Assembly (NCBI GenBank): GCA_013180625.2
Contig: SNVD02013111.1
Span: 1 to 64,000 of the forward strand
Length of the DNA: 64,000 nt
Reading direction: 5' to 3'
Source of the DNA: Boswellia sacra
Lineage: Eukaryota > Streptophyta > Magnoliopsida > Sapindales > Burseraceae
Part shown: in pieces, positions 1-41,557 of the stretch
Layout of the letters: every line of letters begins with the position of its first letter
How positions within the stretch are numbered: position 1 is the stretch's first letter
Notes under the pieces: model-generated
Databases searched by the model: none
Told to the model about the DNA's origin: nothing
The model's input: only the letters and a program-made list of their open reading frames with translations
Program-made: the position numbers and the translations under genes

Positions 1-2
1 AC

Positions 3-1394
3 CATCTCAGTCGCATTGTCCATGACGAGAATGTACTGCCATTACAAGAAAGTTTTCCGGATGAACAATTGCTGTCTCTACATGTAGCAGCCCCTTGGTA
101 GGCAGATATTGTTAATTACTTAGTTACCAAGAAGCTACCACATGACTTGACTCGAGCTCAAAGAGACAAGATCAAAAACATTGCCAAATATTACATGTGG
201 GATGATCCATACTTATGGAAGCATTGTTCTGATCAAGTGATAAGAAGGTGTGCTTCTGAATCTGAATTTAATTCAATTTTGACCTTCTGTCATTCTTATG
301 CATGTGGCGGTCACTTCGGACCAAAAAGAACAGCCCTGAAAGTTCTTGATTGTGGATTCTACTGGCCATCATTGTTCAAAGATGCATATCTATTTTGCAA
401 AGCTTGTGACCGTTGTCAAAGGACAGGTAATTTAAGTGCCAAAAATCAAATGCCACAAACCCCTATACTTATTGTCGAGATTTTTGATGTGTGGGGTATT
501 GATTTCATGGGTCCTTTTCCTTCATCTTTTGGTAATGTTTACATTATACTTGCTGTGGATTATGTTTCTAAATGGGTGGAAGCAAGAGCTAAAAGAACTA
601 ATGATTCTAAAGTTGTTATAGATTTTGTGAAATCTAACATTTTTGCGAGATTTGGAACACCAAGAGCCATGATTAGTGACAGAGGGACACACTTCTGTAA
701 CAAATCATTTGAAGCCTTGCTCAAGAAATACAATATCACTCACAAGGTGTCTACTGCTTATCATCCACAAACTAGTGGTCAAGTTGAAGTTTCAAATCGG
801 AAAGTCAAGTCCATTCTCGAGAAGACAGTGAATCCGAGTAGAAAAGATTGGAGCCTACGATTGAATGATGCACTTTGGGCCTACCGAACTGCTTACAAGA
901 CACCTATTGGGATGTCTCCGTATAGGTTAGTCTATGGTAAGCCATGTCACCTTCCAGTAGAGCTCGAACACAAAGCATGGTGGGCAGTAAAGCTTTGTAA
1001 CATGGAGATGGATGCTGCTGGAGAACAAAGGAAGCTTCAACTGCAAGAATTGGAAGAACTTAGAAATGATGCCTATGAGAATTCCAGAATTTACAAGGAG
1101 AGAACTAAGGCATTTCATGATAAAATGATCTCCAGGAAGAATTTTGAAGTGGGACAGAAAGTTCTTTTATTTCATTCTCGCCTCAAGTTATTTCCAGGTA
1201 AATTACGATCTCGATGGGTTGGACCTTTTGTTATTACTAATGTTTTTCCCCATGGTGCAGTGGAAATCAAGAGCTTAAAAACGGATAAAGTATTCAAGGT
1301 GAATGGGCACAGGTTGAAGCCATACTATGAGAATTCAGTGATGCAAGACATCGAGGAGGTACCTCTCTACGAGCCAGCTTATCTTGATGGGTGA
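3..1394 (+). CDS. Athila pol C-terminal part: RNase H end and integrase
   Basis: The frame enters from the left edge with an RNase H tail and has one in-frame TAG at 99-101. It then runs open to 1394; the longest Met-initiated frame is 147-1394 (415 aa). Counting from 147, the zinc-binding HHCC residues are H49, H56, C87 and C90. The catalytic triad is D119, D178 and E214, with the expected 35-residue spacing between the last two. The C-terminal part has the GPF...[13 protein letters not shown] core usual in Athila integrases. The protein would insert element cDNA into the host genome. The TAG means this copy could not make a full polyprotein without read-through, although the integrase domain is intact. 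Confidence 0.9.
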
Positions 1395-1402
1395 TGGCAA
1401 GT

Positions 1403-1452
1403 AACGTCAGGCTGAGGACGTTAAACCAAGCGCTTATTGGGAGGCAACCCAA
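1403..1452 (+). other. Two small hairpins just after the pol stop
   Basis: AACGTC (1403-1408) pairs with GACGTT (1417-1422). TTGGG (1437-1441) pairs with CCCAA (1448-1452). The segment starts 8 bases after the pol stop codon. From memory, similar text follows pol in other Athila-type elements, but I cannot verify this. A role in RNA processing or export is a guess. Confidence 0.4.
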
Positions 1453-1564
1453 TGTTTTTGAAACATAAATAAAAAGAGACAAAGAAAAGAAGGTAGTAAC
1501 GATTACTTTTTGTGTTTCGAGGAGATTCCTCTCATGGGCTATTATAATTGATCAGGTTTTATCT

Positions 1565-1721
1565 CTCTTGCCATCTGTCTCATTTGCTTTGTTGTTTGTT
1601 TTTGACTTTCGTTTGCTCCTGTGTTTTTATTTCTTTTATGTGTCTCTATTTTCTTTTCTTTTCTTTTCGTTTCTTTTGTTTAATTTGATTATTTCGTACT
1701 TTGTGTTCATTTGTGCAACAG
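1565..1721 (+). promoter_or_regulatory. Polypyrimidine tract and candidate 3' splice acceptor
   Basis: About 150 bases of T/C-rich sequence end in TGCAACAG at 1714-1721, which looks like a plant 3' splice site. Athila env-like frames are expected to need a spliced or internally initiated mRNA because they lie downstream of gag-pol. An exon starting at 1722 would lead into the NABP-like gene at 1841. No donor can be assigned because the 5' part of the element is missing. Confidence 0.4.
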
Positions 1722-1739
1722 CTTGAGGAAACACCGAAA

Positions 1740-1803
1740 CAAGAATTGAAGCCATTGCTTGAAGGTTTGAAGTGTGCATATCTTGGAGAAGAACAGACTC
1801 AAT
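1740..1803 (+). repeat. Displaced copy of the protease-RT linker coding segment
   Basis: In frame from 1722, this segment encodes residues such as QELKPLLEGLKCAYLGE. They closely match LELKPLPEGLKYAYLGE, which lies between protease and reverse transcriptase in element B (about 29094-29145). Here it sits after integrase, just behind the candidate splice acceptor, and its frame closes shortly before 1820. It is probably a template-switch duplication that became the start of the downstream exon. Confidence 0.6.
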
Positions 1804-1840
1804 CGCATTATCGGTAATATCTCCCCTTTTCTTCTCTTCA

Positions 1841-2394
1841 ATGGATGCCGATATCTTTTTGTCGAACCTTCGTAAATATTTTCCTTCACTTCCTCAAAAT
1901 GCTGTGTTTAAAATTTATAAAGTACGGATGACTAGACTTTGGGTACTGATGCTCTTAAATTGCCTGCGGATATCCGATGGCTTATCGAAGCCAAGGTGAG
2001 ATTGTCCGGTGAGCCGGACATTAATCTCGCAAAATACATGCCTGGTCTAGGAAAGAGCTACTACGCCAAGAGGCGAAGAGCGAAAAGGTTACAAGTATGT
2101 TATAAATGTGCTAGATGGAATTGTAACCAGACTTGTCGTTCATTAGGTTTTGTGTCCAGGAATAGAGAAGATAAACTTTCATTTATTAAGAATGGTTTGA
2201 GTAATGAGTCGCTGGATAATGTTTTATTAACTCTTGAGTCACATTCTTGTGGACTTGTTCAGCGTGAATTGCTTAATCTATGGACACAATTTCGTGATGA
2301 ATTGCAGTGTTATAGTCTAGGGAATCTGACTAAAAACGACCCTGTTTGCCAGTTTATAAGAAAACTTGATGGGAAGCAAATCCCCGACTCATAG
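1841..2394 (+). pseudogene. NABP-like Cys-rich basic protein gene, frameshifted
   Basis: The copy in element B (32106-32654) is open throughout. Here the same reading starts at the ATG at 1841 but shifts frame near 1950. The N-terminal part runs in one frame to 1999 and the rest is in the 1939-2394 frame. The intact part keeps the G-K-S-x-Y-A-K-R-R-R-A basic motif followed by a C-x2-C-x4-C-x3-C knuckle. This combination resembles the small nucleic-acid-binding proteins of carla-, allexi- and vitiviruses, several of which suppress RNA silencing. The viral relationship is inferred from the motif, not from a search. The frameshift probably inactivates this copy. Confidence 0.6.
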
Positions 2395-2469
2395 AAGGCG
2401 TTTCAGCCGTTACTGGACGTAAAACCAGAGGAAGATGTGAGCCACAATCACAACTACTTGTATATTTGA
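2395..2469 (+). other. Conserved block after the NABP-like stop codon
   Basis: The 72 bases after the TAG at 2392-2394 match the equivalent block in element B at about 90% (roughly 7 differences). They stay open in the same frame until TGA at 2467-2469. The flanking noncoding DNA of the two elements is much less alike. It may be a read-through extension of the protein or a conserved RNA element. Only about three of the differences are silent, so protein-level constraint is not clear. Confidence 0.45.
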
Positions 2470-2622
2470 ATGTGTGTTGTTGTTGTCGAATTTTATTTTT
2501 TCTTGTTTCGTTTGATCTGATTATCAATGTTGTTTTTGTGTTGTTGTTGTTTGTTGATTTTGTTTGTTTTAATTTCAAGTTTTCTTTTTGACAAACCATA
2601 TGACTACCCCATGGCATAAGTA

Positions 2623-2880
2623 CACGTGGGAGACAAGTGTGGAGGTTTTGTCAACCTCCACCGAAAGTGTATCTCTACTTTTCATGCTTCACGTGGGAGA
2701 CAAGTGTGGGGGTTTTGTCAACCCCCGCCGAAAGTGTATCTCCATTTTCCATGCTTCACGTGGGAGACAAGTGTGTAGGTTTTGTCAAACCTCGCCGAAA
2801 GCATATCTCATTTTTTCAAATCTTGGGGCGATAAATCTGCATCGAGCAACCCCCACCGAAAGTATGTCCCCATGTGTCAA
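2623..2880 (+). repeat. 67-bp tandem repeats with G-box and covarying hairpin
   Basis: Three units start at 2623, 2690 and 2757, with a degenerate fourth to about 2880. Each full unit begins with CACGTGGGAGACAAGTGT. CACGTG is a G-box, and CACGTGG is the core of an ABA-response element. Each unit also contains an inverted repeat around a TTGTC or similar loop. The arms differ between units yet still pair: GGAGGTT/AACCTCC, GGGGGTT/AACCCCC and AGGTTT/AAACCT. The array ends about 20 bases before a TATA-like box and about 130 bases before the LOG start codon. It may be an upstream promoter array or an RNA structure; element B has nothing alike in this position. Confidence 0.7.
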
Positions 2881-2901
2881 AATTTGAGAGTTCTATGGGT
2901 G

Positions 2902-2909
2902 TATATATA
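2902..2909 (+). promoter_or_regulatory. TATA-like box upstream of LOG
   Basis: TATATATA lies 98 bases before the LOG ATG and just downstream of the G-box repeats. A start site about 30 bases further on would leave a short leader. This is a candidate internal promoter for the cargo gene. The region is AT-rich, so a chance match is possible. Confidence 0.35.
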
Positions 2910-3006
2910 CATTCTGCATATTTTCATATGTCATTCCATAACCTGTCTTGCAATTGAAAAGCATAATATCTAACGTGTCTTACACAAGATTAGAGCACTT
3001 GTAGAA

Positions 3007-3657
3007 ATGGAGAAAACACCAATTCGGCGATTCCGCAATATATGCGTATTTTGCGGATCGCAATTTGGTAAAGATGGAGAGTTTACCACAGCAGCTCTTG
3101 ATCTTGGTAGGACATTAGCTGCGAGGGGTATTAATTTGATTTATGGAGGGGGTAGTCTTGGGTTAATGGGGTGTGTGTCAATAGCTGCATCCCTAGGAGG
3201 GAGCAAAGTTCTCGGCATTATCCCTAAACCATTAGCTGTACGAGATATCGTAGGCAACACAATCGGGGAAGAGTTACAGGTCTCTAGTATGCATGAGCGT
3301 ATTGCACATATGGTTGTTAAGTCCGATGCATTTATAGCTTTACCAGGTGGTTATGGTACATTAGAGGAGATATTTCAAATCACCTCTTGGGCACAGCTAA
3401 ACATCCATCGGAAACCCATTGGTTTGTTAAATGTTAATAATTTTTTTGATGGTTTGTTGTCCTTTCTTGATCAAGCTGTAGAAAAAAATTTCATCTCACC
3501 GTCAGCAAGGCAAATGCTGGTTACAGCTTCAACTGCAGGAGAGTTAATTGACAAACTACAAGAATTCGTCTATTCACCTGATCCAACAATGGCTCGGATA
3601 AATTGGTTTGGAGAAGGCAACAAAAGGCGTCAACTGGATTTAACCCTCCATCTGTAA
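3007..3657 (+). CDS. LOG: LOG-like cytokinin riboside 5'-monophosphate phosphoribohydrolase (element cargo)
   Basis: This intact 216-aa frame has no introns. LOG enzymes remove ribose 5'-phosphate from cytokinin nucleotides in one step, releasing active cytokinin bases in the cytosol or nucleus. Seen here are the GGGSLGLMG loop (47-55), MHER (95-98) and PGGYGTLEE (113-121). The family's catalytic Arg and Glu correspond to R98 and E121. The length matches plant LOGs (about 210-230 aa). The residue after MHER is Ile instead of the Lys usual in plant LOGs, so activity needs testing. Plant LOG genes are normally split by several introns. This copy is intronless and lies inside an Athila element, so it looks retro-captured. 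Older annotation may call the family lysine decarboxylase. Confidence 0.93.
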   Translation: MEKTPIRRFRNICVFCGSQFGKDGEFTTAALDLGRTLAARGINLIYGGGSLGLMGCVSIAASLGGSKVLGIIPKPLAVRDIVGNTIGEELQVSSMHERIAHMVVKSDAFIALPGGYGTLEEIFQITSWAQLNIHRKPIGLLNVNNFFDGLLSFLDQAVEKNFISPSARQMLVTASTAGELIDKLQEFVYSPDPTMARINWFGEGNKRRQLDLTLHL

Positions 3658-5637: not shown

Positions 5638-7061
5638 TGATAAGTGTCTATTTATATATCATTTTCATATCAATTCGTCCATGTTTCTTTGCTATATTCC
5701 TTGGTATTTTTATGTTTTTGTGTGGTTTTGATGTTTGTAGGAGTTTTGGAGCAACTTGCACAAAAATGGAGTAAAACCCTTCATTTTCACCTCTGCTAGT
5801 CAACCATCTTCTCGGATTTAATTGTATTGATATACAATGAACCCGATGACATATCATATACCGTTGAAAAGCTCTCGAAGTCTACTTTTTGGAGAAATTT
5901 ACGGTTTATGAATCCATTCAGTGTACCGAAAGTTGTAATCAAAACAGTGTGAGAAGTGTAGAAATGTAATTCCACACATCACTGTAGCATGTATAATACG
6001 GGACACTGTAGCACGTTACTGTAGCAGAGTATTTAAACACATTTTAGGGTTTTATTTTCATAACTTGAAGAGGGGAAAACGTGGGAGGAGGCTGCATTTC
6101 TGGATTTCTCTCATCCTTTGGAGTTCTTGAAGGAGAAAGAAGATTTTGAAAGAGGAGGAACTACAATTCCAAGAAGATTCATCTACAAAGAAGATTTTCA
6201 AAGAATTTGCTAAGTTCTTTCTTTCCTTTTCAATTCTGGAATTTCTCTGTATTGTATTTGTTATTCTGATTGAATATGTGTAACTAAATCTGAATTGGTT
6301 GAGGGTGATTTCAAAGCCCTTGATATGGATTTTGTGAGTTGATTGTGTAAGAAATTGTTATCCAATTCTCTAATTGAAGTTGCTTGTATTTTCCCATATC
6401 TAATGCTTATGATTGCTTACTGATTGTATTTGGAATGGCCAACTGAATATAATCTGTTGTTGTCTATTGCTAGATTAGAAATCTTGATCCGTAATTGTCA
6501 TGAATTTCCAATCATTAGTAGCAAAATTGTGATCAGAGATTGCAATTGGAAAATACAACCTAGGTTAAATAATCCGAACTTGTGTGATTATTGCTTAGAT
6601 CAACCTATCTTTCTCATCGTAATGCTTCCATTGAATTAAACTTAGAGAGCTTGTTCTAGGTTGTTTAATGGATAGAGATTAAATAAAGAGCTTGTTTTAT
6701 TTAACAACAAAGTAAGGAAAGATTGGGATAACAGAGCTTGTTGTTATCTACGGTTGATAACTTCAATGCTGTAATTGGATTACAATTCTATGTTAATTCA
6801 CAAATTCATATCTTGTGGCAGAGAATGAACTCTTAACCAAGTGTCTCTCATTGATTTTTCACTCCATTTAACTTTGCTTTGTGTTATTCTTCATTTGCTT
6901 TCGTATTAAGTTTAGTTAATCAATCAACAAAACCCCCCCTGTTTAGTTTATTATTGCTGGAAAATAACAAATTCAATTAGAATCAATCCTCGTGGGAACG
7001 ATATCTACTTATCACTTTATTACTTGTGCGACTAGTATACTTGCTAGTTTCGAACGCATCA
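5638..7061 (+). repeat. 3' LTR of Athila element A
   Basis: The 1424-base sequence begins TGATAAGTG after the polypurine tract and ends GAACGCATCA. Its distal part (about 6990-7020, CCTCGTGGGAACGATATC) resembles the distal LTR part of element B, where CCTCGTGGATCGACC occurs. Otherwise the two LTRs are very different, so A and B are different families. The right edge is set by the CA end only, since the 5' LTR is not visible. Confidence 0.75.
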
Positions 7062-21086: not shown

Positions 21087-21975
21087 TGAGAGTTCTACAG
21101 GTATGCAGTTATAAATAACAACATAGTAAACTATAATGTAAATTGGCATAGGAGGATTTTTACGTGGTTCGGTTATAAAAACCTACGTCCACGAACAGCT
21201 ATACAGTTGCAATTCACTAAGTTCTTGTTTGTACAATCTTTAGGACCTTTTACAGTGCTGAGTCACTCTCACACACTGAACTAATCTTTGACAAACAAAA
21301 TCTTCGCAAAGATATTAAACTCTAGTGACACTACCCACTCTCTGTCGCAGATAACTTAACAACATACTGTTAAGTTATACATAACACCCGATGTATGAAA
21401 CAGAATTACATAAACACTCAACCCTCAAGTTATCCCAAGTGTCTACTAACTCACTCAGACTTAATCAACAACTCATGTACGGTTTTTAACTTTCATACAT
21501 GAATAAAAGACGCAATGAATCAAAGCAATAAAGACATTCCAATTTGTATAGAAGAACCTCTTTCAATTCATGGAATGTTGTGACCTATACTCTCAAAAAC
21601 ACAATCAAGTCTCCAATGCGCAAAACTATCACCTCACCGATTATGTCATAACACGATGCATATATTGAGAGATCTGGTCGAAATCTTCCTAAAAATCCTG
21701 TAAATATCTCAATCAAAATCACATTAGGATTAGGATAAAATGAAATAAGAAGTGTTATAGATAGACTCCTAAAGGAATTTAGACGCAATTAAATATCCTC
21801 CCATTTTGATTAGGATATAAGAAATATTATCCTGATCTAAGGAGATATTTATTGTGAATCAAATACTTCCTATAATGATCTAGAAACAGTGAAATAGGAA
21901 TCAAAATACTATTCTAATTTTTATCACAAGTTAAACAAAAACGCAACATGTGCATGGCACAAGCAAGTACCAATA
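21087..21975 (-). repeat. Sirevirus 3' LTR
   Basis: On the minus strand it starts TATTGGTACTTGC and ends CTCTCA, about 889 bases. It is followed on the plus-strand side by ATCTCCCCCTTTTTGG (21976-21991), the complement of a purine-rich primer tract. The start TATTGG is probably a mutated TGTTGG as in the partner LTR. It differs from the partner by several percent. Confidence 0.75.
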
Positions 21976-24438: not shown

Positions 24439-24956
24439 AGCTAGGGTTTCTGAACTGTAGAAGATTTTCAAAACAGGAACAGAGAACCAAGACGCAGGAA
24501 AGGGAAGCAACTGTAGGTGAGGGATGATATGAACAAGAGAAGCCCATAAACTATTTGTTATATATATACTAGGCCGAATTTTAAGGAATTTCTGTTTTTC
24601 AACAAGAATTTATTAATAATTTCCCTTTTCAAAACTGTTTAATAACTTCCTTTAAGCACATCAATTCAAATTTGATTTAAATTCAAATAAGGAATACTAA
24701 TAGAGTTAGGATTTCCACCACTGAGACTTCTCCCACTTAATCCAACGATGCTGACATGGCAATGTTTGACACATGGACACACAAGTGACTTATATTTAGG
24801 ACAAGCACATAGGACATTGTTATGAAAAACGTAACAAAACACAGTTAATAATATCATAATAGTAATATTAGGATTATCATATGTATCATTCTAAAGAAGC
24901 ATATTTTAAAGCTGAGTAATTTACACATGAAAGCTTATTTTGAATCAATTGAGTGG

Positions 24957-26478
24957 TGATGAACACTTAAATATGCATGTTTAATAAGAGTTTAGTTCAT
25001 CATATTGCATTAATAGTGTCATTAAATTCCTCAACTTAAGCATATTTGTAGCAATTGCATCTTTGGAATTAATTTCTCTTAATTTTGGTTTTGTTACAGG
25101 TTCGGTAAAATAGGCATAACTCTCTATTTATAGATCGGAATGGTGCAATTCTTAATGTTTTGGAAAGCTGATTTAATTGTCTACAAGATTGCATTCACAA
25201 GCATCATCAAATTCGGGCTCTTAGTGGACCAAAATTGGGCTTGAAGTGAACCCATCTATAGTCTCGGCCCAGTCTGACCAGGCCTCAGTATTTGGACCGT
25301 ATCTCTCAAAATACGTATCCAAATTGTGCAAATCAATATGTTCTAGAAAGCTTAGAGAAATATCTACAACTTTCATGAAGGCATGTGATTAAAATTCACA
25401 ATATTTCGATGTCAAAATTGATGGTCAAAGTCGGTGCCTAATGATCCCAATTGTCAAAGATATTTACAACTAATATTTGACAATTATGCCCTTGTAATTT
25501 GACAAGTTTGCCGCTGGATGTATCTATAAATAGAGGTGCCTTGTGACCCATTAGGGCATCTTGGCCTTGGCTGGAACATTTTGGCTTTGGCTAGGATCTT
25601 GTATTGTGTTTTGTGTGTTTATGTTATTAATGAATTTCCTTTTTCTTGCATTTTATTTTCTTTCTAATTATAATGTTCTTCTAATTTCTCTTTTGCTAAG
25701 GTGAAAGGGTGAAACCCTTGATATGAGAATAAGGATTCTCTAACCCTTAATATGTGCTTAATAATCTTAATCTTATAATGTTTATTCAATATGATTTATA
25801 TTTAATTTCTTAATCAATCTTGACACCACTCGTAAAGTGAGGTCTTGATCCATTGTCGACAATCCTTGGCACATCAAATGCTTGGATCCTTTCTAGATGA
25901 TGTATGGTTCTTTCTTACCGACACGAATCTAGTTAGGAACCTTGATTTGTTGTAGACATATGATGATTGGCACATTGGATGCTTGAACCCATTTACAAGA
26001 AGTGGTATAAATATTGGTAATGAAACAAATATAATTCATATAACTAAAATGGGTTAATTCTCCTTATTTGAAATATCAAGGGCGGATCCCCTAACCTTAG
26101 CCTTCATTGTTATTGTGTTAATTCCTCTTGTATTTTAATTATTCTATTGTTTATGAACTTTTTATTTACTATGGTAGGTTCTACCACCTTATGAAATTGT
26201 TCTTAATTTACTATGGTTGGTTATACCACCTATTTCCATGGATGGTTTTACCTCCTCTTGCTTTTTGTTTTATATTTGAATGGTCGGTAAGACCGCCTAC
26301 CATCTTACATATTTATTGATATTATCTTGTCATTTCTTTGAATTATTCATATCATAATTGCTTATCTTATAATTTGTAACGCTAAAATCTCCTTCCTCGT
26401 GGATCGACCCCGGTCTCACCGGGTTTTATTACTTCGACACTCCTATACTTGGGAGATAATCCTTTTTCAGATTTGTCA
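24957..26478 (+). repeat. 5' LTR of Athila element B
   Basis: 1522 bases, TG..CA. It is nearly identical to 34987-36514. A TATAAATAGAGG box at about 25525-25536 is a likely core promoter for the genomic RNA. Confidence 0.95.
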
Positions 26479-26484
26479 AGTTTT

Positions 26485-26502
26485 TGGCGCCGTTGCCGGG
26501 GA
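26485..26502 (+). other. Primer binding site complementary to tRNA-Asp
   Basis: TGGCGCCGTTGCCGGGGA lies 6 bases after the LTR. It is complementary to the 3' end of plant tRNA-Asp, the primer used by Athila elements. Confidence 0.92.
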
Positions 26503-26612: not shown

Positions 26613-28258
26613 ATGAAAATTTGGTCACGAACATCTAGTGGTAGACTTGTTAGAAAAACATCATCTTTCTTAGAAAACATGGCCGGCAATCATGAGGAAA
26701 TATTCACGGATGAAGGGGACAACCGTTCGCAAAAAAATGATCAAAACCAACGAAGAACCCTCAGAGACTACATGAATCCGGTAAGGACTAGTGCACCATC
26801 TTGTGTAGTTTCTCCTCCAGATTCAATCCATTTCAATTTCAAGCCAAGTTTTGTTCAACTTCTACCCACCTTTCATGGCCTTCATGTGGAGAACCCATAT
26901 TCGCACTTAAAACTCTTTGACGAGGTATGTAATTCCTACACTGACCCAAATTGTAGCATAAACACCATTAGATTAAAGCTTTTTCCTTTTTCTTTAAAAG
27001 ATAAAGCTAGAACATGGCTACAAAATTTGAGGTCGAATTCCATTAGTTCATGGGATGAGATGAAACAACAATTTTTAAAAAAATTTTTTCCTACCCATAG
27101 AACAAATTCTCTTAAAAGACAAATTTCTGATTTCTCTCAAAGACAAGGAGAAACCTTTTACCAATGTTGGGATAGGTATAAGGAACTACTTAATACCTGT
27201 CCTCACCATGGGTTTGAAACTTGGAGAATAGTTGCACACTTCTATAAAGGGTTAACACCTCAAGATAGGCAATTAGTGGAATTAATGTGTAATGGAGAAT
27301 TTAAAGAAAAAGACCTGAGGAAGCACTTGACTTCCTAGATTCCTTGGCAGAAAAGGCACAAAATTGGGACACTGCTGGCACCTATGAGGTACCAAGCAAG
27401 GCCCAAACCTCGACATTCAATAGAGGTATTTACAACCTTAGGGAAGACCATGACCTTCAAGCCAAATATGCATCCCTAGCTATAAAAGTTGAGGCTTTAG
27501 AAATGAAAAAGAGTGGTCAATTGAATTCTATTCAAGAAAATGTTTGTAACATTTGTGATGACAATGACCATTCTACTGATAATTGCCCAACTTTGCCTGC
27601 CTTTAGGGAATGTCTCCATGAAGAAGCCAATGCCTTGAACACTTGCAAAAGGCCAAATCACAATCCATATTCACAAACCTACAATCCTGGCTGGAGAAAT
27701 CATCCAAATTTTAGCTGGAAAAATGACAATCATGCACAATCTTCACAAGTCCCTTTTCAAACACGACAAAATTTTCAAAATTCTCATGATCATGCATATG
27801 CTTCTCCTCCTAGGAATGACTTTGAAGAGACATTGCATTCATTCATTACAAAGCAAGAGACTTTCAATAGTCAAACTGCTAAAACATTAGCAAATTTGTC
27901 AGAAACTCTTGCAAAATTTGCATCGACATTTAGCATCCAAGAGAAGGGAAAATTTCCTTCTCATACATTGCAAAACCCCAAAGATCAATCTAACTCAAAT
28001 GCAGGAAGTTCAAGTAACCATTACTTTGATCAAGCCAAGTCAGTCATGACCCTTCGCAATGGTAAGATCGTTGAAAAACACATTCCTGACCCTTGTGAGA
28101 AAGAAGAAGAATCGATATCTAAAGGACAGGAAGAGGTGGCCAAACCAACACCTAGCGAAGAGGAAACCAAATCCTCATCTGTGCCTCCATTTCTTCAAGC
28201 ATTAGCCACACAAAAGAAGCCAACTCACAATTCTAAAATCTTTGAAATTTTCAAATAG
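26613..28258 (+). pseudogene. Athila gag, frameshifted
   Basis: The start is uncertain: 26613 begins MKIWSRTSSGR, 26679 begins MAGNHEEIF, and both are in frame. The capsid region shows FNFKPSFVQLLPTFHGL, ENPYSHLKLFDEVCNS and LQNLRSNSISSWDEMKQQFL, typical of Athila gag. A one-base loss near 27315 shifts the frame. The rest continues from 27344 with the knuckle CNICDDNDHSTDNC (near 27546-27590) and ends at an in-frame TAG at 28256. Gag forms the particle that packages element RNA. Confidence 0.88.
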
Positions 28259-29227
28259 GTAAAGGTCAACATTCCCTTGCTTGATGTGATCAAACAGGTA
28301 CCTTCTTATGCAAAATTTTTGAAGGACTTGTGCACTGTAAAAAGAAAACTAAATGTGAAAAAGAAGGCCTTTCTAGCCGAGCAAGTAAGTGCTATTCTTC
28401 AAAATAATAATAAAGTGAAATATAAGGATCCAGGTTGTCCTACAATTTCATGTGTTATTGGAGACCATAAAATTGAACAAGCTTTACTTGATCTAGGTGC
28501 TAGTGTGAATTTGCTTCCATACTCGGTTTTTCAAAAACTCAATCTAGGTGAGTTAAAACCGACTTCTGCGACTCTTTTGCTTGCTGATAGATCAATTAAA
28601 GTACCAAGAGGAGTAGTGGAAGATGTATTAGTTCAAGTTGATAAATTCATTTATCCAGTAGATTTTATCGTCTTGGACACACAACCAGTGGAAGTAAGCA
28701 ATTCAATTCCTGTTATTTTAGGGCGTCCATTTCTAGCTATCTCTAATGCTTTGATTAATTGCGGGAATGGAGTCATGAAGCTATCATTTGGGAATATGAC
28801 ATTGGAACTTAATGTTTTCAATATGTGCAAACAACCAAATGAAGAAGAAGATGAAATTGATGAGGTTAATGTAATTGAATCTATTGTGGAAGATCACATC
28901 CAAAAAGGGAGTTCTTCTGACCCTTTGGAAACTTGTTTAGTGAATTCGTTAGAATCAAGTACGGAACTAGAACATGATCTTTCTAATATGTGTTCTTTAC
29001 TGGATTGTGCACAGGTGTTGGAAAAAAGCTCAAAATCAAGATTTGAAGAATTGGGGCAGATGAATGAAAGCAAGGAAGATGAAGCTCCCAAGCTAGAATT
29101 GAAGCCCTTACCTGAAGGACTAAAATATGCATATCTTGGGGAGAATCAGACATATCCGGTGGTAATTTCTTCATCCCTCACATGCGAGCAACAAGGTAAG
29201 TTGATAGAAGTGCTTAAAAGGCATTAA
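28259..29227 (+). pseudogene. Athila protease region
   Basis: This part of pol continues in frame after the TAG at 28256. It contains the aspartic protease site LLDLGASVNLLPYSVF (DLG in place of the usual DSG or DTG, common in Athila) and the flap and end region VILGRPFLAISNALI. Further on are the acidic linker and the LELKPLPEGLKYAYLGE segment that is duplicated in element A. It ends at a TAA at 29225-29227, so it is separated from RT by a stop. Confidence 0.85.
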
Positions 29228-30780
29228 AATGCAATTGGGTGGACTTTAAAAGATATAAAAGGCATTAACCCTTTAATTTGCACACATAGAATACATTTAG
29301 AGGAAAATGCCAAAACATCTCAACAACCTCAAAGGAGATTAAATCCACACATGAAAGAGGTCATTAGGGTTGAAGTTCTCAAACTACTTGATGTGGAAAT
29401 TATCTATCCTATTTCTTATAGTAAGTGGGTAAGCCTTACACAAGTAGTACCTAAAAAATCTGGCATTACAGTTGTTAAAAATGAAAGGGGGGAATTATTG
29501 CCAACTCGTGTCTCGTCTAGTTGGAGGATGTGCATTGATTATAGAAAATTAAATGCTGTCACTAGAAAAGACCATTTTCCCTTACCTTTCCTTGACCAAA
29601 TTCTTGAAAGAGTCGCAGGACACCCCTACTACTGCTTTCTTGATGGATACTCAGGCTATTATCAAATTCCCATTGCAATTGAAGACCAAGAAAAGACCAC
29701 ATTCACGTGCCCCTTTGGCACTTTTGCATTTAGGAGAATGTCTTTTGGACTTTGTAATGCTCCAGCTACTTTTCAAAGATGCATGCTAAGAATTTTTAGT
29801 GATATGGTCGAGCATTGTTTAGAAGTTTTCATGGATGATCTAACTGTCTTTGGAAACTCTTTTGATAATTGTCTTGGAAACTTAGAAAAAGTCCTAAAAA
29901 GGTGTGTAGAAAAAGGTCTTATTTTGAATTGGGAAAAATGTCATTATATGGTCACTTCCGGAATTGTTTTAGGTCATGTGGTGTCTTCTAAAGGAATTGA
30001 AGTGGATAAAGCAAAAGTGGAATTAATTTCCCATTTGCCTCCACCAAAAACAGTTAAAGAGGTTCGTTCATTCTTGGGGCATGCTGGATTTTATAGGAGG
30101 TTCATAAGAAATTTCAGTGCTATATCTAAACCTCTTTGTAACCTCTTAATAAAAGATACTTCCTTTGAATGGACTCAAGAATGTCAAAATACCTTTGATA
30201 CACTAATTGGACTTTTAACAACTGCTCCAATTATGCAATCTCCTGATTGGTCCTTGCCTTTTGAATTGATGTGTGATGCAAGTGACTATGCAGTTGGTGC
30301 TGTCTTAGGACAAAGAAAAGAAGGTAAGCCTTATGTGATATACTATGCCAGTAGGACTTTAAATGATGCACAAATGGATTACACAACAACTGAAAAAGAA
30401 CTACTTGCAGTAGTATTTGCATTGGACAAATTTCGTTCTTATTTAATTGGCTCTCCAACAATTGTTTACACTGACCATGCAGCTGTGAGATATTTAATGT
30501 CTAAAAGGATGCAAAACCTAGATTGATACGGTGGATCTTATTGCTCCAAGAATTCAACATCACAATAAAGGATAAGAAAGGAGCCGAAAATGTCGTTGCT
30601 GATCATCTTTCAAGACTAACGACAGAGACATTAATTGAAACTTCACCTATCAATGATTCTTTTCCTGATGAATTTTTATTTTCCGTTGCTACTGTACCTT
30701 GGTTTGCTAATATTGTAAATTTTCTTGCGACAGGAAAATGCCACCTCATTGGAAAGCTCAAGACAAAAGAAAATTTTTAA
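29228..30780 (+). pseudogene. Athila reverse transcriptase and RNase H
   Basis: The main open frame is 29351-30526. RT motifs include WRMCIDYRKLNAVT, the active site VFMDDLTVFG and KCHYMV..GIVLGHVVS. RNase H begins with FELMCDASDYAVGAVLGQRK and continues to YTDHAAVRYL. A frameshift near 30520 moves the end into the 30523-30780 frame (KGAENVVADHLSRL). The enzyme copies element RNA into DNA. Catalytic Asp pairs are still present, but the gene is broken. Confidence 0.9.
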
Positions 30781-31963
30781 CCGAGGTGAAAAATTTTTAC
30801 TGGGATGATCCGTATCTTTTCAAATATTGTCCGGATCAAATAATAAGAAGATGCATACCCGACAATGAGGTAAGTAGTGTCATTAACTTTTGTCATTCTG
30901 AAGCATGTGGGGACATTTTTCATCTAGAAAAACAACTGCTAAGATCTTACAATGTGGATTTTATTGGCCCACCTTATTTAAAGATGCACATGCATTTTGC
31001 AAAACGTGTGAAAATTGTCAAAAATTGGGATCCATTTCAAAAAGAACATGATGCCTTTGAATCCTATTCTTGTTGTTGAAATCTTTGATTGTTGGGGTAT
31101 TGATTTTATAGGACCCTTTCCACCGTCATTTGGTTTTGTGTATATCCTTGTTGCAGTAGACTATGTTTCAAAATGGGTCGAGGCAACTCCATGTCGAAAC
31201 AATGACCACAAAACAGTTGTCAAATTTTTGAAAGAGAATATCTTGAGTAGATTTGGAATTCCTCGAGCCATTATTAGTGATGGGGGTACGCATTTTTGTA
31301 ATAAACTATTTGAAACCTTAATGAAGAAATATGGAATAACCCATAAAATTTCTACACCTTATCACCCACAAACAAGTGGACAAGTTGAATTAGCTAATAG
31401 GGAGATAAAACAGATCCTAGAAAAAACGGTTAACCCAAATCGTAAAGATTGGTCTTTAAGACTTAGTGATGCACTTTGGGCTTACCGAACTGCCTTTAAA
31501 ACATCATTGGGAATGTCTCCTTATAGAGTAGTTTATGGAAAACCTTGTCACTTACCTGTGGAAATTGAGCATAAAGCTTATTGGGCCATTAAAACATTCA
31601 ACACAAATTTGAATGATGCTTGCAAGCTACGTAAACTCCAACTGAGTGAACTTGAAGAAATCAGGAATGAGGCTTATGAAAATTCTAAAATCTACAAAGA
31701 AAAAATGAAGGTTTTTCATGACAAATCCATTGTTAGAAAATCTTTTGAACCTTCACAAAAAGTTCTTTTGTATGATTCAAGATTGCATTTGTTTCCTGGT
31801 AAACTTCGGTCTCGTTGGACTGGGCCTTTATTGTTAAAAATGTTTTCCCTCATGGAGCAGTTGAAATTGAGAACCCAAAGAATGGTAATGTGTTTAAAGT
31901 TAATGGACAACGGTTAAAACCATTCTTTGAAAATTTTGCCCAAAACGAAGAGTCATTGCTTTA
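30738..31963 (+). pseudogene. Athila integrase, several frameshifts
   Basis: The N-terminal zinc region is in one frame (DPYLFKYCPDQIIRRC, FCHSEACG). The catalytic core from about 31060 holds [19 protein letters not shown] and [14 protein letters not shown], the D,D,E triad. The C-terminal part shifts again near 31835, and the original end is the TAA at 31961-31963. It is very similar to element A's integrase. Confidence 0.88.
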
Positions 31964-32105
31964 ATCGATCCTTTTTAAGGATTGATTTTTCCCGGTCAAG
32001 TGGCGGATACGGTACTCCGTGACATTTAAAGTCGGTTTTTCAGTTCCCTAAAAACTGTTGCTCACTTTGCATCCATTTTCTTTTCTTCTCTGTCATTTTA
32101 TTCAC

Positions 32106-32654
32106 ATGGATACCATTCTCTCAAAATTGCACAAACATTTTCCCTCTCTTCCTCAAAATGATTTGCTTAAAATTTATAAAGCTCGTGCAGAAAGACTAAG
32201 GTTGTTGATGCGTAAGGGTATTCCTGCTGATTTTAAGATGGTAATTGAAGCCAAGGTTCGATTCTCTTGTGAATTTTCAGATAATCTTGTGTCCCATATG
32301 CCAGGTTTGGGAAAAAGCTCTTATGCCAAAAAGCGAAGAGCGAAAAGGTTACAAGTTTGTCCCAGATGTGCAAGATGGACTTGTAACCAGCGTTGCCGCT
32401 CCTTGGGATATTTGTCTAACAATCGAGAGGATAAACTACAGTTCATCAAGAATGGACTGAGTAAGGAGTCTTTGGATGATATCCGAACGACTCTTGAGAC
32501 GCATTCTTGTGGACTTGTGCAGCGTGAAATTTTTAATTGTGGGACACAATTCCGAGATGAGCAGGAACGCTATAGTCTTGGGAATCTGACTCAAAACGAC
32601 CCTGTTTGCCAGTTTATAAGAAAACTGGATGGGAAGCATATCCCCAACTCATAG
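32106..32654 (+). CDS. NABP-like Cys-rich basic protein (element cargo)
   Basis: The open frame is 182 aa; the ATG at 32106 matches the start in element A. Seen: an alpha-helical, Leu- and Lys-rich N-terminal third, then G-K-S-S-Y-A-K-K-R-R-A-K-R at 69-81. A zinc-knuckle-like C85-x2-C88-x4-C93-x3-C97 follows, then a C-terminal part with LVQREIFN and CQFIRKLDGK. The G-[KR]-S-x-Y-A-basic motif followed by Cys pairs is the signature I associate with nucleic-acid-binding proteins of carla-, allexi- and vitiviruses; viral members are often silencing suppressors. Binding of RNA or DNA is likely; silencing suppression is inference. It is longer than most viral members at both ends. A plant or Athila-specific zinc-knuckle protein is the alternative. 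Confidence 0.7.
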   Translation: MDTILSKLHKHFPSLPQNDLLKIYKARAERLRLLMRKGIPADFKMVIEAKVRFSCEFSDNLVSHMPGLGKSSYAKKRRAKRLQVCPRCARWTCNQRCRSLGYLSNNREDKLQFIKNGLSKESLDDIRTTLETHSCGLVQREIFNCGTQFRDEQERYSLGNLTQNDPVCQFIRKLDGKHIPNS

Positions 32655-32756
32655 AAGGTGTTTAAGCCGTTTCTGGACGTAAAACCAGAGGAAGATGTGA
32701 GCCACAGTCACAACTACCTGTACATATGCATGCGTGCCATCATTTTTGAATTTTAA
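32655..32756 (+). other. Conserved block after the NABP-like stop, element B
   Basis: It is the counterpart of 2395-2469. It stays open in frame after the TAG at 32652-32654 until TAA at 32754-32756. The first 72 bases are conserved with element A, including CTGGACGTAAAACCAG, which can form a 4-bp stem. Read-through or RNA function are both possible. Confidence 0.45.
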
Positions 32757-32971: not shown

Positions 32972-33621
32972 ATGGAGGGAACTTCACAACGTCGAATCCA
33001 AAGGATATGTGTATTCTGCGGATCTCGACCGGGTAAAAGTGAGGAGTTTGTAGAAGTAGCAAACTATCTTGGTAGGCTACTGGCTGAAAGAAAGATTCAT
33101 GTGGTTTATGGGGGAGGTAGCCTCGGGTTAATGGGTTGCGTATCAACAGCTGCACATGTAGGAGGCAGTCAAGTGTTAGGAGTTATTCCTAAAGCTTTGG
33201 CTGTAGAAAGCATTGTTGGAAAAACGGTTGGGAAGGAGTTACAGGTCTCCTCTATGCATGAACGCATGGCACATATGCTCATCAATTCAGATGCCTTTAT
33301 TGCTTTACCAGGTGGCTTTGGCACTCTTGAAGAAATTTTTCAAATTGCCTCTTGGGCCCAACTGAATCTCCATCAAAAACCCATAGGTTTGTTGAATGTT
33401 AAAAATTTCTTTGATCCTTTGATAAGTTTTGTTGATGCAGCTGTGGAACAAAATTTTATCCCACATTGGCGAGACAGATCCTTGTTTCTGCCACTTCTGC
33501 TGGTGAGTTACTTGACAAATTACAAGAAGTTGAGTATGAACCTGACCCAGCTAGTACTCAAATTAATTGGGCAGGAGGGCAAAACAAAAAGTGCAAATTG
33601 GATTTGAATCTCCGTTTGTAA
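32972..33621 (+). pseudogene. LOG: LOG-like cytokinin-activating enzyme, frameshifted near the end
   Basis: Intronless counterpart of the LOG at 3007. The first 163 residues are collinear with it and about 72% identical by hand count. GGGSLGLMG (47-55), MHER (95-98) and PGGFGTLEE (113-121) are kept. Met replaces the usual Lys after MHER. A one-base frameshift near 33462 diverts the frame to a stop at 33607. The old C-terminal codons can be followed to TAA at 33619-33621. The lost tail is about 50 residues, including the last helices, so this copy is probably inactive. The break looks recent, since everything before it is well preserved. Confidence 0.9.
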
Positions 33622-34986: not shown

Positions 34987-36514
34987 TGATGAACACTTAA
35001 ATATGCATGTTTAATAAGAGTTTAGTTCATCATATTGCATTAATAGTGTCATTAAATTCCTCAACTTAAGCATATTTGTAGCATTTGCATCTTTGGAATT
35101 AATTTCTCTTAATTTTGGTTTTGTTACAGGTTCGGTAAAATGGGCATAACTCTCTATTTATAGATCAGAATGGTGCAATTCTTAATGTTTTGGAAAGCTG
35201 ATTTAATTGTCTACAAGATTGCATTTCACAAGCATCATCAAATTCGGGCTCTTAGTGGACCAAAATTGGGCTTGAAGTGAACCCATCTACAGTCTCGGCC
35301 CAGTCTGACCAGGCCTCAGTATTTGGACCGTATCTCTCAAAATACGTATCCAAATTGTGCAAATCAATATGTTCTAGAAAGCTGAGAGAAATATCTACAA
35401 CTTTCATGAAGACATGTGATTAAAATTCACAACATTTCGATGTCAAAATTGATGGTCAAAGTCGGTGCCTAATGATCCCAATTGTCAAAGATATTTACAA
35501 CTAATATTTGACAATTATGCCCTTGTAATTTGACAAGTTTGCCCCTGGATGTATCTATAAATAGAGGTGCCTTGTGACCCATTAGGGCATCTTGGCCTTG
35601 GCTGGAACATTTTGGCTTTGGCTAGGATCTTGTATTGTGTTTTGTGTGTTTATGTTATTAATGAATTTCCTTTTTCTTGCATTTTATTTTCTTTCTATTA
35701 TAATGTTCTTCTAATTTCTCTTTTGCTAAGGTGAAAGGGTGAAACCCTTGATATGAGAATAAGGATTCTCTAACCCTTAATATGTGCTTAATAATCTTAA
35801 TCTTATAATGTTTATTCAATATGATTTATATTTAATTTCTTAATCAATCTTGACACCACTCGTAAAGTGGAGGTCTTGATCCATTGTCGACAATCCTTGG
35901 CACATCAAATGCTTGGATCCTTTCTAGATGATGTATGGTTCTTCCTTACCGACACGAATCTAGTTAGGAACCTTGATTTGTTGTAGACATATGTGATTGG
36001 CACATTGGATGCTTGAACCCATTTACAAGAAGTGGTATAAATATTGGTAACGAAACAAATATAATTCATATAACTAAAATGGGTTAATTATCCTTATTTG
36101 AAATATCAAGGGCGGATCCCCTAACCTTAGCCTTCATTGTTATTGTGTTAATTCCTCTTGTATTTTAATTATTCTATTGTTTATGAACTTTTTATTTTAT
36201 TTACTATGGTAGGTTCTACCACCTTATGAAATTGTTCTTTAATTTACTATGGTTGGTTATACCACCTATTTCCATGGATGGTTTTACCTCCTCTTGCTTT
36301 TTGTTTTATATTTGAATGGTCGGTAATACCGCCTACCATCTTACATATTTATTGATATTATCTTGTTATTTCTTTGAATTATTCATATCATAATTGCTTA
36401 TCTTATAATTTGTAACGCTAAAATCTCCTTCCTCGTGGATCGACCCCGGTCTCACCGGGTTTTATTACTTCGACACTCCTATACTTGGGAGATAATCCTT
36501 TTTCGGATTTGTCA
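34987..36514 (+). repeat. 3' LTR of Athila element B
   Basis: It is nearly identical to the 5' LTR. Differences include a 5-base insertion (TTTTA) near 36195 and several single-base changes. It is followed by the target duplication AGTGG. Confidence 0.95.
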
Positions 36515-36830
36515 AGTGGACAACTAGAGCATGCTTCTTATTCACACAAAAGTTGATTTCAACGGAAACTTTTCTTTAATACAGTAGCTTTCACACAATA
36601 TAGAGGTAGCCCTTTTCATATGAGTAGTTAACCTCAACATATTTCCTAGATACCCTGAGGTGACTCTCAATGATGGCTTTCACACATCATATATTGGTAG
36701 CGCTCACTACATTTTTCATTTTAACTCAGTATCTATTATTCATACAAATTTTATACCGTAGCTCAAACATGCTAAATTATAAGGAAACTTATGATACGAT
36801 AGATATGAATAACATAACAGCATACTGTGT

Positions 36831-38330
36831 TCACTCATGTAACTGACAAACAACTAAGGCTTTTCTTAGATTTTCAAACCTTGTTGTGTCTAATGCCTTA
36901 GTGAACAAGTCAGCCAATTGTTTATCAGTGGAGATGTGCTCAATGTGTATAAGTTTAGATTCTATTAGTTCCCTTATAAAATGGTGTCTAATATCAATGT
37001 GTTTTGTTCTAAAATGCTGAACATGATTTTTGGAAATATTTATCGCTAGTATTATCACAAAACACAGTTATAGGCTTTTGTTCAATACCATAATCACTCA
37101 ACATTTGCTTCATTCATAATAGTTGTGTACAACAACTCCCTGCGGCTATGTATTCGACTTCAGTTATAGATAAAGAAATTGAATTCTGCTTCTTGTTGTG
37201 CCACAAGACCAAGTTAGTACCAAGATAAAACAACCCTGCAAGACAATCGTTTGTATATTTAGAAAACCATATCCCATAATCACATGTTCCATGAGCATAC
37301 CTGATGATTCTCTTGGCTGCTACAAGATGTGATTCTTTAGGATTTGCTTGAAACCTTTCACAAAGTCCTACACTAAAGCTTAAATCTGGTCTGCTTGCTG
37401 TGACGTATAGCAGGCTACCAATAATGCTTCTGTGCAAGCTTGCATTAACATCTTTTCCTGTATTATCCTTTGAAAGTTTTAGATTAGTACTGATAGGAGT
37501 TTTCATTAGTTTTGCATTCCCAAGCTCAAACTTTTTTACAAGATTTTTTGCATATTTTGATTGAGATATGAATATCCTATCATTCATTTGTTTAACCTGC
37601 AATCCAAGAAAGAAATTTAATTCTCCTACCATGCTCATCTCAAACTCTTCTTGCATCAACTTAACAAACTCATTAATTTTGTTTTTGTTAGTTGATTCGA
37701 AAACAATGTCATCAACATATATTTGAGCAACAATAAAATAGTTAGATGCATATTTGATAAACAAGGTCTTGTCATTGCTACCTCTTTTATAACCTTTGTT
37801 GATTAAAAAGTTTGTCAACCTTTCATACCAAGCTCTAGGAGCTTGTTTCAAACCATACAAAGCTTTGTGCAGTTTGTACACAAAATCAGGATGTTTAGGA
37901 TCTTCAAATCCTTTAGGCTGTTCAACAAAAATTTCTTCATTGAGATAGCCATTTAAAAATACAGTTTTAACATCCATTTGATATAGCTTAAAATCAAGTA
38001 AACAAGCAATTGGAAGTAGTAATCTGATTGACTCAAGTCTAGCTACACGTGTAAAGGTCTCATCAAAGTATATGCCTTCAACTTGTGTGTAACCTTGTGC
38101 AACTAGCCTAGCTTTATTCCTTACTACTTGACCACTTTCGTCAGTTTTATTTTTGAATATCCATTTAGTTCCAATGACATTTGTACCTTTTGGCTGAGGA
38201 ACTAATTCCCATACTTTATTTCTTTTAAACTGATTAAGTTCATCTTACATAGCTTGAATCCACACCTCTTCTTTTAATGCTTCTTTCACATTTTTTGGTT
38301 CAACTAAATAAACATAACATGCAAACCTTA
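36831..38330 (-). pseudogene. Sirevirus reverse transcriptase and RNase H
   Basis: The longest open piece is 37977-37114. Motifs: MDVKTVFLNGYLNEEIFVEQP, LYGLKQAPRAWYERL, active site YVDDIVF, and RPDLSFSVGLC. The RNase H end follows at 37058-36831, HIDIRHHFIRELIE..KQLADLFTKALD. The upstream part (about 38260-37980, KARLVAQGYTQVEG) is in frame but interrupted by stops. It is broken between 37114 and 37058. Confidence 0.88.
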
Positions 38331-39959: not shown

Positions 39960-41557
39960 GATCTTTTATGCAAAAAGTTCAACAATTTAAAGCATCTAAG
40001 TCTAATGTGTCCCCTTTTTCCACAAACATAACAAGTAGGAATGAATTTCCTTACCTTTTTAGGACTGGATTTGAAAGAACTCAAAGGAGAAACAATGTTT
40101 CACTGCTCTTGGAATTAGGACTTGATTTTGAAGAGTTAAGTTAAAAATTATTACCTAATGTTGAAGCTTTAACAAAGACTATTTTTTATTTAGATGCAAC
40201 ATTACATTCAGTATACCCCAATCCATGTTTTGTTGGAATTGTCTCTTCCAAGGTTCAAAACTTCAAGTTTGGATGTTCCAATTTTGAGTTGATCAACACA
40301 CTTCTTGCTTTCAATTAGTTCTGTTGTGATTTTCTCAATGTGTGTTGTTTTGCCTATCAAAACAGTCTCAAGTTCTATGATATGGTTTTCAGCACAAGCT
40401 TTTTCACATTTTAGAACTTCAATCTCCTTTTTCAAGGTGTTGATTTCTTCTTTCTGACTCAGCCATTCACTATAGAATGCATTGTATGTTTCTTACAACT
40501 GTTCATAATATTCTGGTCCATCTTCATCACCTGAATGATCAACACTGACTTGACAATCTTCTGTTATGTCCGACATAACAACTTTCCCTTTATCTGTTGC
40601 AGATGCTGTAAATGCAACAAAATTGCTCATGCAATCTTGATCTTTTGACTTTGATTCTGATTCATTGCTCCAGGTTGCTGTTAGCCCTTTGTTTTTCTTC
40701 TTGAGATTAGCACATTCATATTGAATATGCTTATAACTAGAACATTCATAATACTAAATCTGTCCTTTCTTTTCAGGTTGTTTTGGCTTCTTTTTATCAT
40801 TCTACTTGCTGAACTTTCTGAACTTTTCTTCACTTGAGGTTGATGGCTTTCCTTGATTCTTTTTCCTGAAATTTCTTTTCATGAACTTGATATAATTTTT
40901 TGTTAGAAAAGCAAATTGTTTAGAATCAGTTTCATCAAGCTCATCACTATATTCATCATCAGATTTTTTTTGCTTTCACATTAAATGCAATGCTTTTGCC
41001 TTTTTATTTCCTAGTACTTTGATTTATTTCAAAGGTTTGGAGAATGCCAATCAGTTCATCAACTCCAATTTCATCAGTGTTTTTAACTTCCTCAATGGCT
41101 GAAATTTTTAGGTTGAAATTTATCTGGGATAGACCTAATTATCTTACTAACAACTTCTGCATCAATGAAAGTTTTGCCAAGCATGTATGCTGAATTTGTA
41201 ATGTGACATATCTTAAAGTAAAAATAAGAAATTGATTCATCCTCATGTATCATTAGATTTTCAAAATTGAGAATTCAGTCTCATTAATTTAGATCTTTTA
41301 ACAGATGTAGTACCTTCATGTTTTACCTCAAGTATGTCCTATACTTCTTTGGCCACTTTGTATCTAGAAATCTGTCCGAAGTTGTTTAACTCTGCTACAG
41401 CAAAGATTGCATTAAGAGCCTTGAAGTTCCAACTGGATCGTCGATATTCTTCATTAGACCATTCATCCTCTGGTTTTGGTTCGGCATTACCAAAAGTATT
41501 CAGCTTTGTTGGCGGACAGTTATAGAGCTGCAATTCACTAAGTTCTTGTTTGTACAA
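39960..41557 (-). pseudogene. Sirevirus gag, truncated at its start
   Basis: Open pieces run from 41557 (EDEWSNEEYRRSSWNFKALNAIF) leftward. One zinc knuckle is intact, CYVCGKRGHIRLRC (about 40046-40005). An upstream knuckle near 40745-40710 is degraded. The first gag codons are missing because gag joins the LTR remnant directly at about 41525. Confidence 0.72.

Follow-up and report, generated by a model that had tools for sequence, protein, structure and literature searches.

We consider it fairly probable that Athila-type (Ty3/Gypsy) retrotransposons of Boswellia sacra carry an old and selectively maintained cargo module, made up of a zinc-finger protein resembling the viral nucleic-acid-binding proteins (NABPs), a candidate cis-acting element and a host-derived LOG-type phosphoribohydrolase. 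Two elements with this module, A and B, lie on the + strand of the window, the whole stretch of 64,000 nucleotides that was analyzed, and were compared with related loci in the same genome and with proteins from other plants.

Element A is cut on its left side by the window edge, which is the start of the contig, and is readable from the integrase (INT) onward. The INT ORF (147..1394), comprising an H2C2 zinc domain and the core, is followed by the NABP-like Cys-rich gene (1841..2394, with an ATG at 1841), which has a frameshift in its N-terminal third and is open over 1939-2394. The candidate cis element (2308..2457) covers the last 28 codons of this gene and 66 nt from the stop codon; its coordinates were transferred by homology from the comparison of L009, B, and L029 described below. 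The leader of LOG contains three tandem repeats of 67 bp, each beginning CACGTGGGAGACAAGTGT (2623..2823), and the LOG ORF (3007..3657) runs uninterrupted for 216 aa to its end at 3657. The 3′ LTR (5638..7060) begins TGATAAGTGTC, its end being set by a match to the LTR of locus L022 (96.6% identical).

Element B is bounded by two LTRs that are 98.4% identical (24957..26478 and 34987..36514, ends judged by eye) and flanked by a target-site duplication, AGTGG, at 24952-24956 and 36515-36519. A primer-binding-site (PBS)-like sequence, TGGCGCCGTTGCCGGGGA, is located 3′ of the 5′ LTR at about 26485-26502. The gag-protease region (27344..29227) consists of the C-terminal part of gag (27344-28258), which was assigned by position and has no gag Pfam match, and a protease (PR) of the Asp_protease_2 type (28277-29227). 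Pfam identified the reverse transcriptase (RT)/RNase H (RH) ORF (29351..30526) and the INT core ORF (31015..31917). Downstream lie an open NABP-like gene of 182 aa (32106..32654), the candidate cis element spanning its stop codon (32568..32717), and a LOG gene (32972..33607) whose catalytic core is open and whose C terminus is frameshifted relative to those of A and L019. The original prediction had assigned this DNA to an Athila-type element, and this is borne out by the LTR pair of element B, its PBS-like site, the domain order PR-RT-RH-INT, the extra region between INT and the 3′ LTR, and the target-site duplication; the PBS type and a long 3′ region are typical of Athila. The prediction had also placed an intact LOG gene in element A and the order INT, Cys-rich gene, LOG in both elements despite unrelated LTRs, all of which was confirmed, with exact coordinates. 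The LTRs of A and B share no similarity (best E 0.93), and the proteins of the two families are 68% (LOG) and 70% (NABP) identical, the B-family LOG being taken from L019 and the A-family NABP from L009. Within the window, each element has one open and one frameshifted member of the pair (LOG is open in A, NABP in B). We rejected these frameshifts as a sign of gene death: small indels are confined to individual copies, many being deletions of one base, and may reflect either decay or assembly error.

The genome of the same species (638.6 Mb) was searched with PF03641; 150 of 10,198 first-look candidates were scored, and all 150 were above cut-off. Of these LOG loci, 44 were read, namely 20 of up to 9.9 kb, 20 of 2 kb, and four from the eight best, the other four of the eight being duplicates of longer loci. 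The 9.9-kb loci comprised a random draw of 19 among 101 of the 150 together with L028, chosen because its short version (L001) showed no NABP, and the 2-kb loci were taken in list order. In 40 of the 44 loci, LOG is preceded on its own strand, within 2.5 kb, by an NABP-like gene, which excludes chance co-occurrence. The pair is thus conserved in Athila elements beyond the window, as the original prediction required, and its position between INT and the 3′ LTR holds in two element families with unrelated LTRs. Three loci are B-type (L019, L032, and L039) and all others A-type; the idea that L032 and L039 are mosaics was dropped, both being plain B-type. Since the loci were found through their LOG score, copies without LOG are missing from this sample and conservation of LOG is favored, a bias from which NABP is free.

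NABP and LOG occur usually but not always together. Among the four exceptions, L018 is rearranged, and L028, L036, and L043, which form one clade, have a full-length LOG and no NABP gene; L028 and L043 retain the sequence behind the NABP stop codon (98-99% identical) and have lost the coding body. The 3.3-kb contig L029 carries INT, NABP, and 983 nt behind NABP and no LOG, a tblastn search with two LOGs giving a best match of only E 0.27. The two genes are therefore not obligately coupled. L029 is filed under a Nomurabacteria MAG, and its gene content is that of a plant Athila element. A protein search with the NABP of element B yielded 272 relatives among 294 candidates. The plants named among the best 120 of the 272 are Rhamnella, Populus, Xanthoceras, Acer, and Orobanche, and in one Rhamnella gene model (P0093) the Carla_C4 and LOG domains are present in one protein model.

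The likeness of the Cys-rich protein to viral NABPs, first suggested from the letters of the DNA, stood up to profile searches. PF05515 (Viral_NABP) matches with E 1.5e-10 in A and 8.9e-08 in B, and Carla_C4 with 3e-05 and 3e-07, all above curated cut-offs, and these two viral families match 90 and 89 of 98 members at E 0.01. Neither was found in 10 reversed or shuffled controls; the two reversed ones among them matched Stress-antifung (6.7e-04 and 4.7e-03), below the cut-off of that family. Across the 98 sequences, the cysteines C85, C88, C93, and C97, spaced C-X2-C-X4-C-X3-C, and the basic, putatively nuclear-localization-like stretch K75 K76 R77 R78 A79 K80 beside this finger are conserved at 90% or more. 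The spacing described for the carlavirus zinc finger, C-X2-C-X12-C-X4-C (PMC8839810), is not present in the protein. An AlphaFold model has a mean pLDDT of 71.7 and a pTM of 0.36, an earlier model based on 24 sequences being poor (pLDDT 53.3). No solved structure matched the NABP sequence, and a search of solved structures with the NABP profile returned one weak match, a ribosomal protein (E 0.63). In viral contigs, 39 stretches fit a pattern and none encodes an NABP relative; phage records gave no match. Suppression of RNA silencing, which the original prediction attached to this protein, would be a property taken over solely from the name of the family. For chrysanthemum virus B, the carlavirus NABP p12 is reported to be a transcription factor that induces hyperplasia and a weak silencing suppressor (PMC12172455, PMC8839810).

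The second gene belongs to the LOG family, as predicted, with matches to PF03641 (E 1.6e-38 in A, 2.2e-35 in B) and, above cut-off, to TIGR00730 (NCBIfam), and with the PGGxGTxxE motif and the catalytic Arg and Glu in place. Scores against NF058542, the cytokinin phosphoribohydrolase equivalog, were 117.1, 109.5, and 115.1 bits compared with a cut-off of 300, a shortfall that may simply reflect a bacterial model. In the LOG of Corynebacterium glutamicum, Arg99 and Glu122 are proposed to be catalytic, and Lys100 and Glu125 lie in the putative site for the prenyl group (PMC4979012). Among 120 listed relatives of the LOG of element A, the catalytic residues Arg98 and Glu121 are present in 113 and 116, respectively, so that, judged by these residues, LOG is not catalytically dead, as the original prediction required. 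The pocket residues Lys99 and Glu124 are kept in only 11 and 10 of the 120, and both are replaced in 109. In a search with AtLOG3, all four residues were invariant in the 120 listed matches. The prenyl-pocket Lys and Glu of CgLOG and AtLOG3 are absent from the LOGs of both elements (I99 and Q124 in A, M99 and Q124 in B). Such a change of the pocket speaks against ordinary cytokinin chemistry, and the substrate of the element LOGs may be something other than an ordinary cytokinin precursor.

In a phylogenetic tree, the element LOGs and their relatives are separated, with 100/100 support, from a host side made up of AtLOG8 and ten proteins of the LOG3/LOG1 type; the bootstrap had not fully settled. 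Ten matches to the LOG of element A keep both Lys and Glu, and the seven of these in the tree are placed between the host proteins and the other element LOGs. One of the ten, P0121 from Xanthoceras, extends into sequence similar to the gag-PR junction of element B (E 1.2e-08), so at least one LOG with the Lys/Glu pair looks element-borne. Taken together, this placement and P0121 suggest that the pocket change probably followed the capture of LOG. Populus proteins named LOGL10 belong to the element LOG clade.

Both genes appear to be under purifying selection. Between families, dN/dS amounts to 0.20, 0.22, and 0.25 for NABP (three comparisons) and to 0.21 for LOG, with dS about 1; INT gave 0.11 and 0.16, with saturated dS in a third comparison, and the LOG of A compared with the partial LOG of L009 gave 0.07. 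Within the A family (42 LOG and 39 NABP copies), variants present in a single copy, which mostly arose after insertion, were distinguished from variants shared by at least two copies. When only transitions are counted, the ratio of amino-acid-changing to synonymous variants (N/S) among single-copy variants is near the neutral expectation (LOG, 1.69 vs 1.83; NABP, 1.74 vs 1.78) and that among shared variants is far under it (LOG, 0.42; NABP, 0.28). With transversions included, the shared values (0.55 and 0.39) again lie well under the single-copy values (1.92 and 2.54), and the latter are themselves under expectation (3.06 and 3.36), which indicates that part of the signal resides in recent variants too. 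Each small indel in the NABP gene occurs in at most two of the 39 copies. Long-term maintenance of the pair is supported by the dN/dS of about 0.2 between families and by the depletion of shared amino-acid changes.

Many carriers of the module lack pol. Sixteen loci have NABP with about 3.2 kb or more of sequence upstream of it; of these, two (L010 and L025) contain RT and INT, one (L022) contains an INT tail, and the other 13 contain neither. Twelve of 20 loci yielded an LTR pair, the 9.9-kb reads favoring short elements. The pol-less B-type locus L019 has LTRs that are 98% identical, GAGAG on both flanks, a gag-like ORF matching B, a nearly open NABP, and an open LOG. Selection was then assessed in a set of 15 loci taken as pol-less, which holds 10 gag and 11 PR copies. 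The set includes L022 as well as L015 and L023, for which too little upstream sequence is at hand for a verdict. Shared N/S is 11/31 (0.35) for LOG and 7/14 (0.50) for NABP, compared with 53/23 (2.30) for gag, 87/41 (2.12) for PR, and 33/8 (4.12) for the spacer when treated as a reading frame; gag differs from LOG at p=6.9e-06 and from NABP at p=0.0044. Comparing shared with single-copy variants within each gene gave p=0.00062 for LOG, 0.024 for NABP, 0.88 for gag, and 0.29 for PR; the single-copy N/S values are 1.57 for LOG and 1.69 for NABP (expected, 2.81 and 3.01), 2.49 for gag, and 2.88 for PR. Judged by these variants, the two cargo genes of pol-less elements remain constrained, whereas the gag and PR remnants in the same set drift.

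Selection on NABP and LOG might nevertheless operate only in autonomous elements, with the pol-less copies receiving fresh 3′ halves by template switching and the module being functionless there. The 5′ and 3′ trees conflict, and pol-bearing copies, the element A of the window and L010, sit among pol-less ones in the 3′ tree. L025 combines a divergent body (N-terminal part of INT 57-67% identical to A) with an A-like INT tail (95%), LOG (100%), and 3′ placement. The conflict and this chimera indicate that the module moves between elements by recombination, and with the interleaving of pol-bearing copies it follows that selection could act mainly in autonomous elements. On the other hand, the numbers of shared synonymous variants per codon are similar in NABP (14/184), LOG (31/216), gag (23/297), and PR (41/304; 15, 15, 10, and 11 copies, respectively), so there is no clear sign that the 3′ module is younger than the 5′ part that drifts, and pol-less loci outnumber pol-bearing ones 13 to 2 among the 16, with one holding an INT tail. 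We therefore treat selection confined to autonomous elements as a serious possibility that falls somewhat short of being likely.

The candidate cis element, about 150 nt long, straddles the NABP stop codon and was delineated by comparing L009, B, and L029, each measure giving three pairwise values. Among codons that keep their amino acid, 23/24, 19/22, and 19/22 are identical in the last 28 codons of NABP, compared with 59/99, 61/103, and 52/98 elsewhere in the gene (Fisher, 0.00048, 0.016, and 0.0039), and identity over the 66 nt that start with the stop codon is 94%, 89%, and 92%. A core of 28 nt is exact in 35 of the 44 loci. All four sequences tried share three short predicted hairpins in their minimum-energy folds, with fold energies no better than those of shuffles (z 0.18, 0.25, −0.79, and −0.25). 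One base pair is altered on both sides; for the base-pair counts, an underpowered comparison of three sequences, the observed value was reached in 156 of 500 shuffles. Rfam gave nothing at E up to 1 for positions 1400-3100, and viral contigs contain no exact copy of the core. Readthrough of the NABP stop codon was considered, as the in-frame stretch behind it is conserved in A, B, and L029, and P0065 continues into this stretch. It was rejected: the changes behind the stop mostly alter the amino acid (by eye) and include the base-paired double change, which a nucleic-acid element fits better. The conserved tract thus points to a nucleic-acid element overlapping the end of the NABP gene. The element persists in L029 despite the lack of LOG there, and in L028 and L043 despite the loss of the NABP body, and may therefore serve the RNA of the retrotransposon itself.

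These observations bear on a reading that takes the Cys-rich gene to encode an RNA chaperone or packaging factor of Athila itself, comparable to a nucleocapsid protein and binding the cis element so as to package the RNA of the retrotransposon, with a distant or convergent likeness to NABPs and with LOG as a separate passenger. Such a role would agree with the presence of NABP, without LOG, and of the conserved tract overlapping its stop codon in L029 and with the compact C-X2-C-X4-C-X3-C spacing, which is closer to that of the retroviral knuckle. We regard it as less likely than not in view of the two viral Pfam families that match 90 and 89 of the 98 members and neither shuffles nor reversals, of a LOG as constrained as NABP, and of the persistence of the cis element in L028 and L043 without the NABP coding body. 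That the genes are neutral passengers, captured sequences left open merely by the youth of the copies, is very improbable: many copies are indeed shifted or stopped (among A-family copies with at least 90% coverage, 25 of 42 for LOG and 6 of 39 for NABP are free of both), but the reading is already contradicted by the dN/dS of about 0.2 at a dS of about 1, the depleted shared amino-acid changes, and the rarity of each indel.

If the module is selectively maintained, as we favor, NABP could bind the RNA or DNA of the element, perhaps at the adjoining cis element, and might have a nuclear role like the one reported for a carlavirus NABP. LOG would strip ribose 5-phosphate from a cytokinin-type or other N6-substituted adenosine monophosphate; the LOG reaction activates cytokinins, and these favor division (PMC8234997). 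Jointly, the two proteins may drive the cell into a proliferating, permissive state that promotes copying and germ-line inheritance. Such a push toward a permissive, dividing cell would be the simplest theme common to NABP and LOG, and host manipulation by the pair, as originally proposed, is an inference. Copies without pol would be satellites mobilized in trans, and they might keep the module either because it acts preferentially for its own carrier or because it is regained by recombination.

A more far-reaching scenario, which we put forward as speculation and consider rather doubtful, is that an Athila element took up the 3′ end of a flexivirus-like RNA genome, consisting of NABP and the structured tract downstream of it as a former viral 3′ UTR, together with a host LOG mRNA. 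The LOG pocket would have been re-cut for a new N6-modified nucleotide, the cassette would spread between elements, and pol-less satellites would keep it alone, and not the transposition machinery, under selection; the cassette would then be to a retrotransposon what a host-control region is to a virus.

The usual view of plant retrotransposons is that of gag-pol machines whose extra ORFs are poorly understood. In the present elements, two such genes have readable biochemistry and show measurable selection that extends to copies lacking RT and INT, which makes an action of retrotransposons on host hormone state, silencing, or nucleotide pools testable. Genome annotations may also count element-borne copies as host LOG genes, for example Populus LOGL10.

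The abstract of Steinbauerova et al. 2011 reportedly mentions two Athila-like elements similar to LOGL4. A LOG (YgdH) domain has been noted, with credit to that study, in Gypsy consensuses of two Citrus species and Populus (PMC9289625). The original claim that no such plant LTR element had been described thus fails for LOG alone and holds at most for the NABP–LOG pair. Among the literature matches listed, no report of NABP families or a carlavirus-like protein together with LOG in LTR elements was found by title or start of abstract. What looks new is the purifying selection on both genes, the pol-less carriers, the changed LOG pocket, and the candidate cis element. The elements with a LOG(L4)/YgdH extra ORF resemble ours in being Ty3/Gypsy elements with a LOG-family domain; the available part of the report (PMC9289625) names no NABP partner, cargo selection, pol-less carriers, pocket change, or cis element.

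Compared with plant LOGs (AtLOG3 and AtLOG8), the element LOGs share the sequence family, the PGGxGTxEE motif, the catalytic Arg and Glu, and a similar length, and differ in forming a separate clade, in being multicopy, and in the replacement of the Lys-Glu pair in most listed members. An m6A RNA demethylase domain is also used by flexiviruses. The orchid Gypsy elements with such a domain are likewise plant Gypsy elements that gained an enzyme domain; they carry a different enzyme, were found in two Phalaenopsis species only, and have no NABP named in the available part of the report (PMC9289625). The NABPs of carlaviruses and flexiviruses (CRP/NABP; PF05515, PF01623) have in common with the element protein the profile matches above cut-off and a basic stretch by a four-Cys motif, whereas the element protein is encoded by an LTR element, is 182 aa long, and has C-X2-C-X4-C-X3-C instead of C-X2-C-X12-C-X4-C. 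Finally, LARD and TRIM elements are non-autonomous LTR elements, bounded by LTRs and without RT and INT, and the pol-less copies are like them in these respects; they differ in carrying two cargo genes that appear to be under purifying selection while the gag and PR remnants drift.

Two of the LOG-bearing loci read from the same genome, L028 and L043, lack the coding body of the virus-like nucleic-acid-binding-protein-like gene (NABP) and carry a full-length LOG. In both, the region 3′ of the NABP stop codon is retained, with 98–99% identity. In one copy, L042, about 20 small indels were seen in NABP versus one in LOG, an indel load that may reflect poor local assembly quality.

In element A, 67-bp tandem repeats with CACGTG cores (window positions 2623–2823) are situated upstream of LOG and are followed, near position 2900 and still ahead of the gene, by a TATATATA stretch; the repeats and this stretch could together form an internal promoter. 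By visual inspection, a conserved hairpin-like block is located 5′ of NABP both in element B (window positions 31990–32050) and in contig L029 (positions 1665–1735), and seems to be lacking in element A. L029 (positions 1–3330) is plant Athila DNA with integrase and NABP that was deposited under a Candidatus Nomurabacteria MAG, where its presence is probably due to contamination.

Element B is flanked by direct repeats (window positions 21192–21973 and 41513–42297; approximately 20.3 kb apart and 95% identical), which are possibly the LTRs of a single element into which others have inserted. Directly past element B, minus-strand ORFs (36831–37977) were judged by eye to resemble Copia-type reverse transcriptase. 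The window also contains a near-perfect inverted repeat (61641–61947), with 151-nt arms that are 96% complementary and separated by a 5-nt gap.

In the tree, the clade of element LOGs, which is separate from AtLOG8 and ten host LOG3/LOG1-type proteins, includes two Populus proteins annotated as LOGL10 (P0160 and P0231), meaning that database tallies of host LOG genes may count in element copies.
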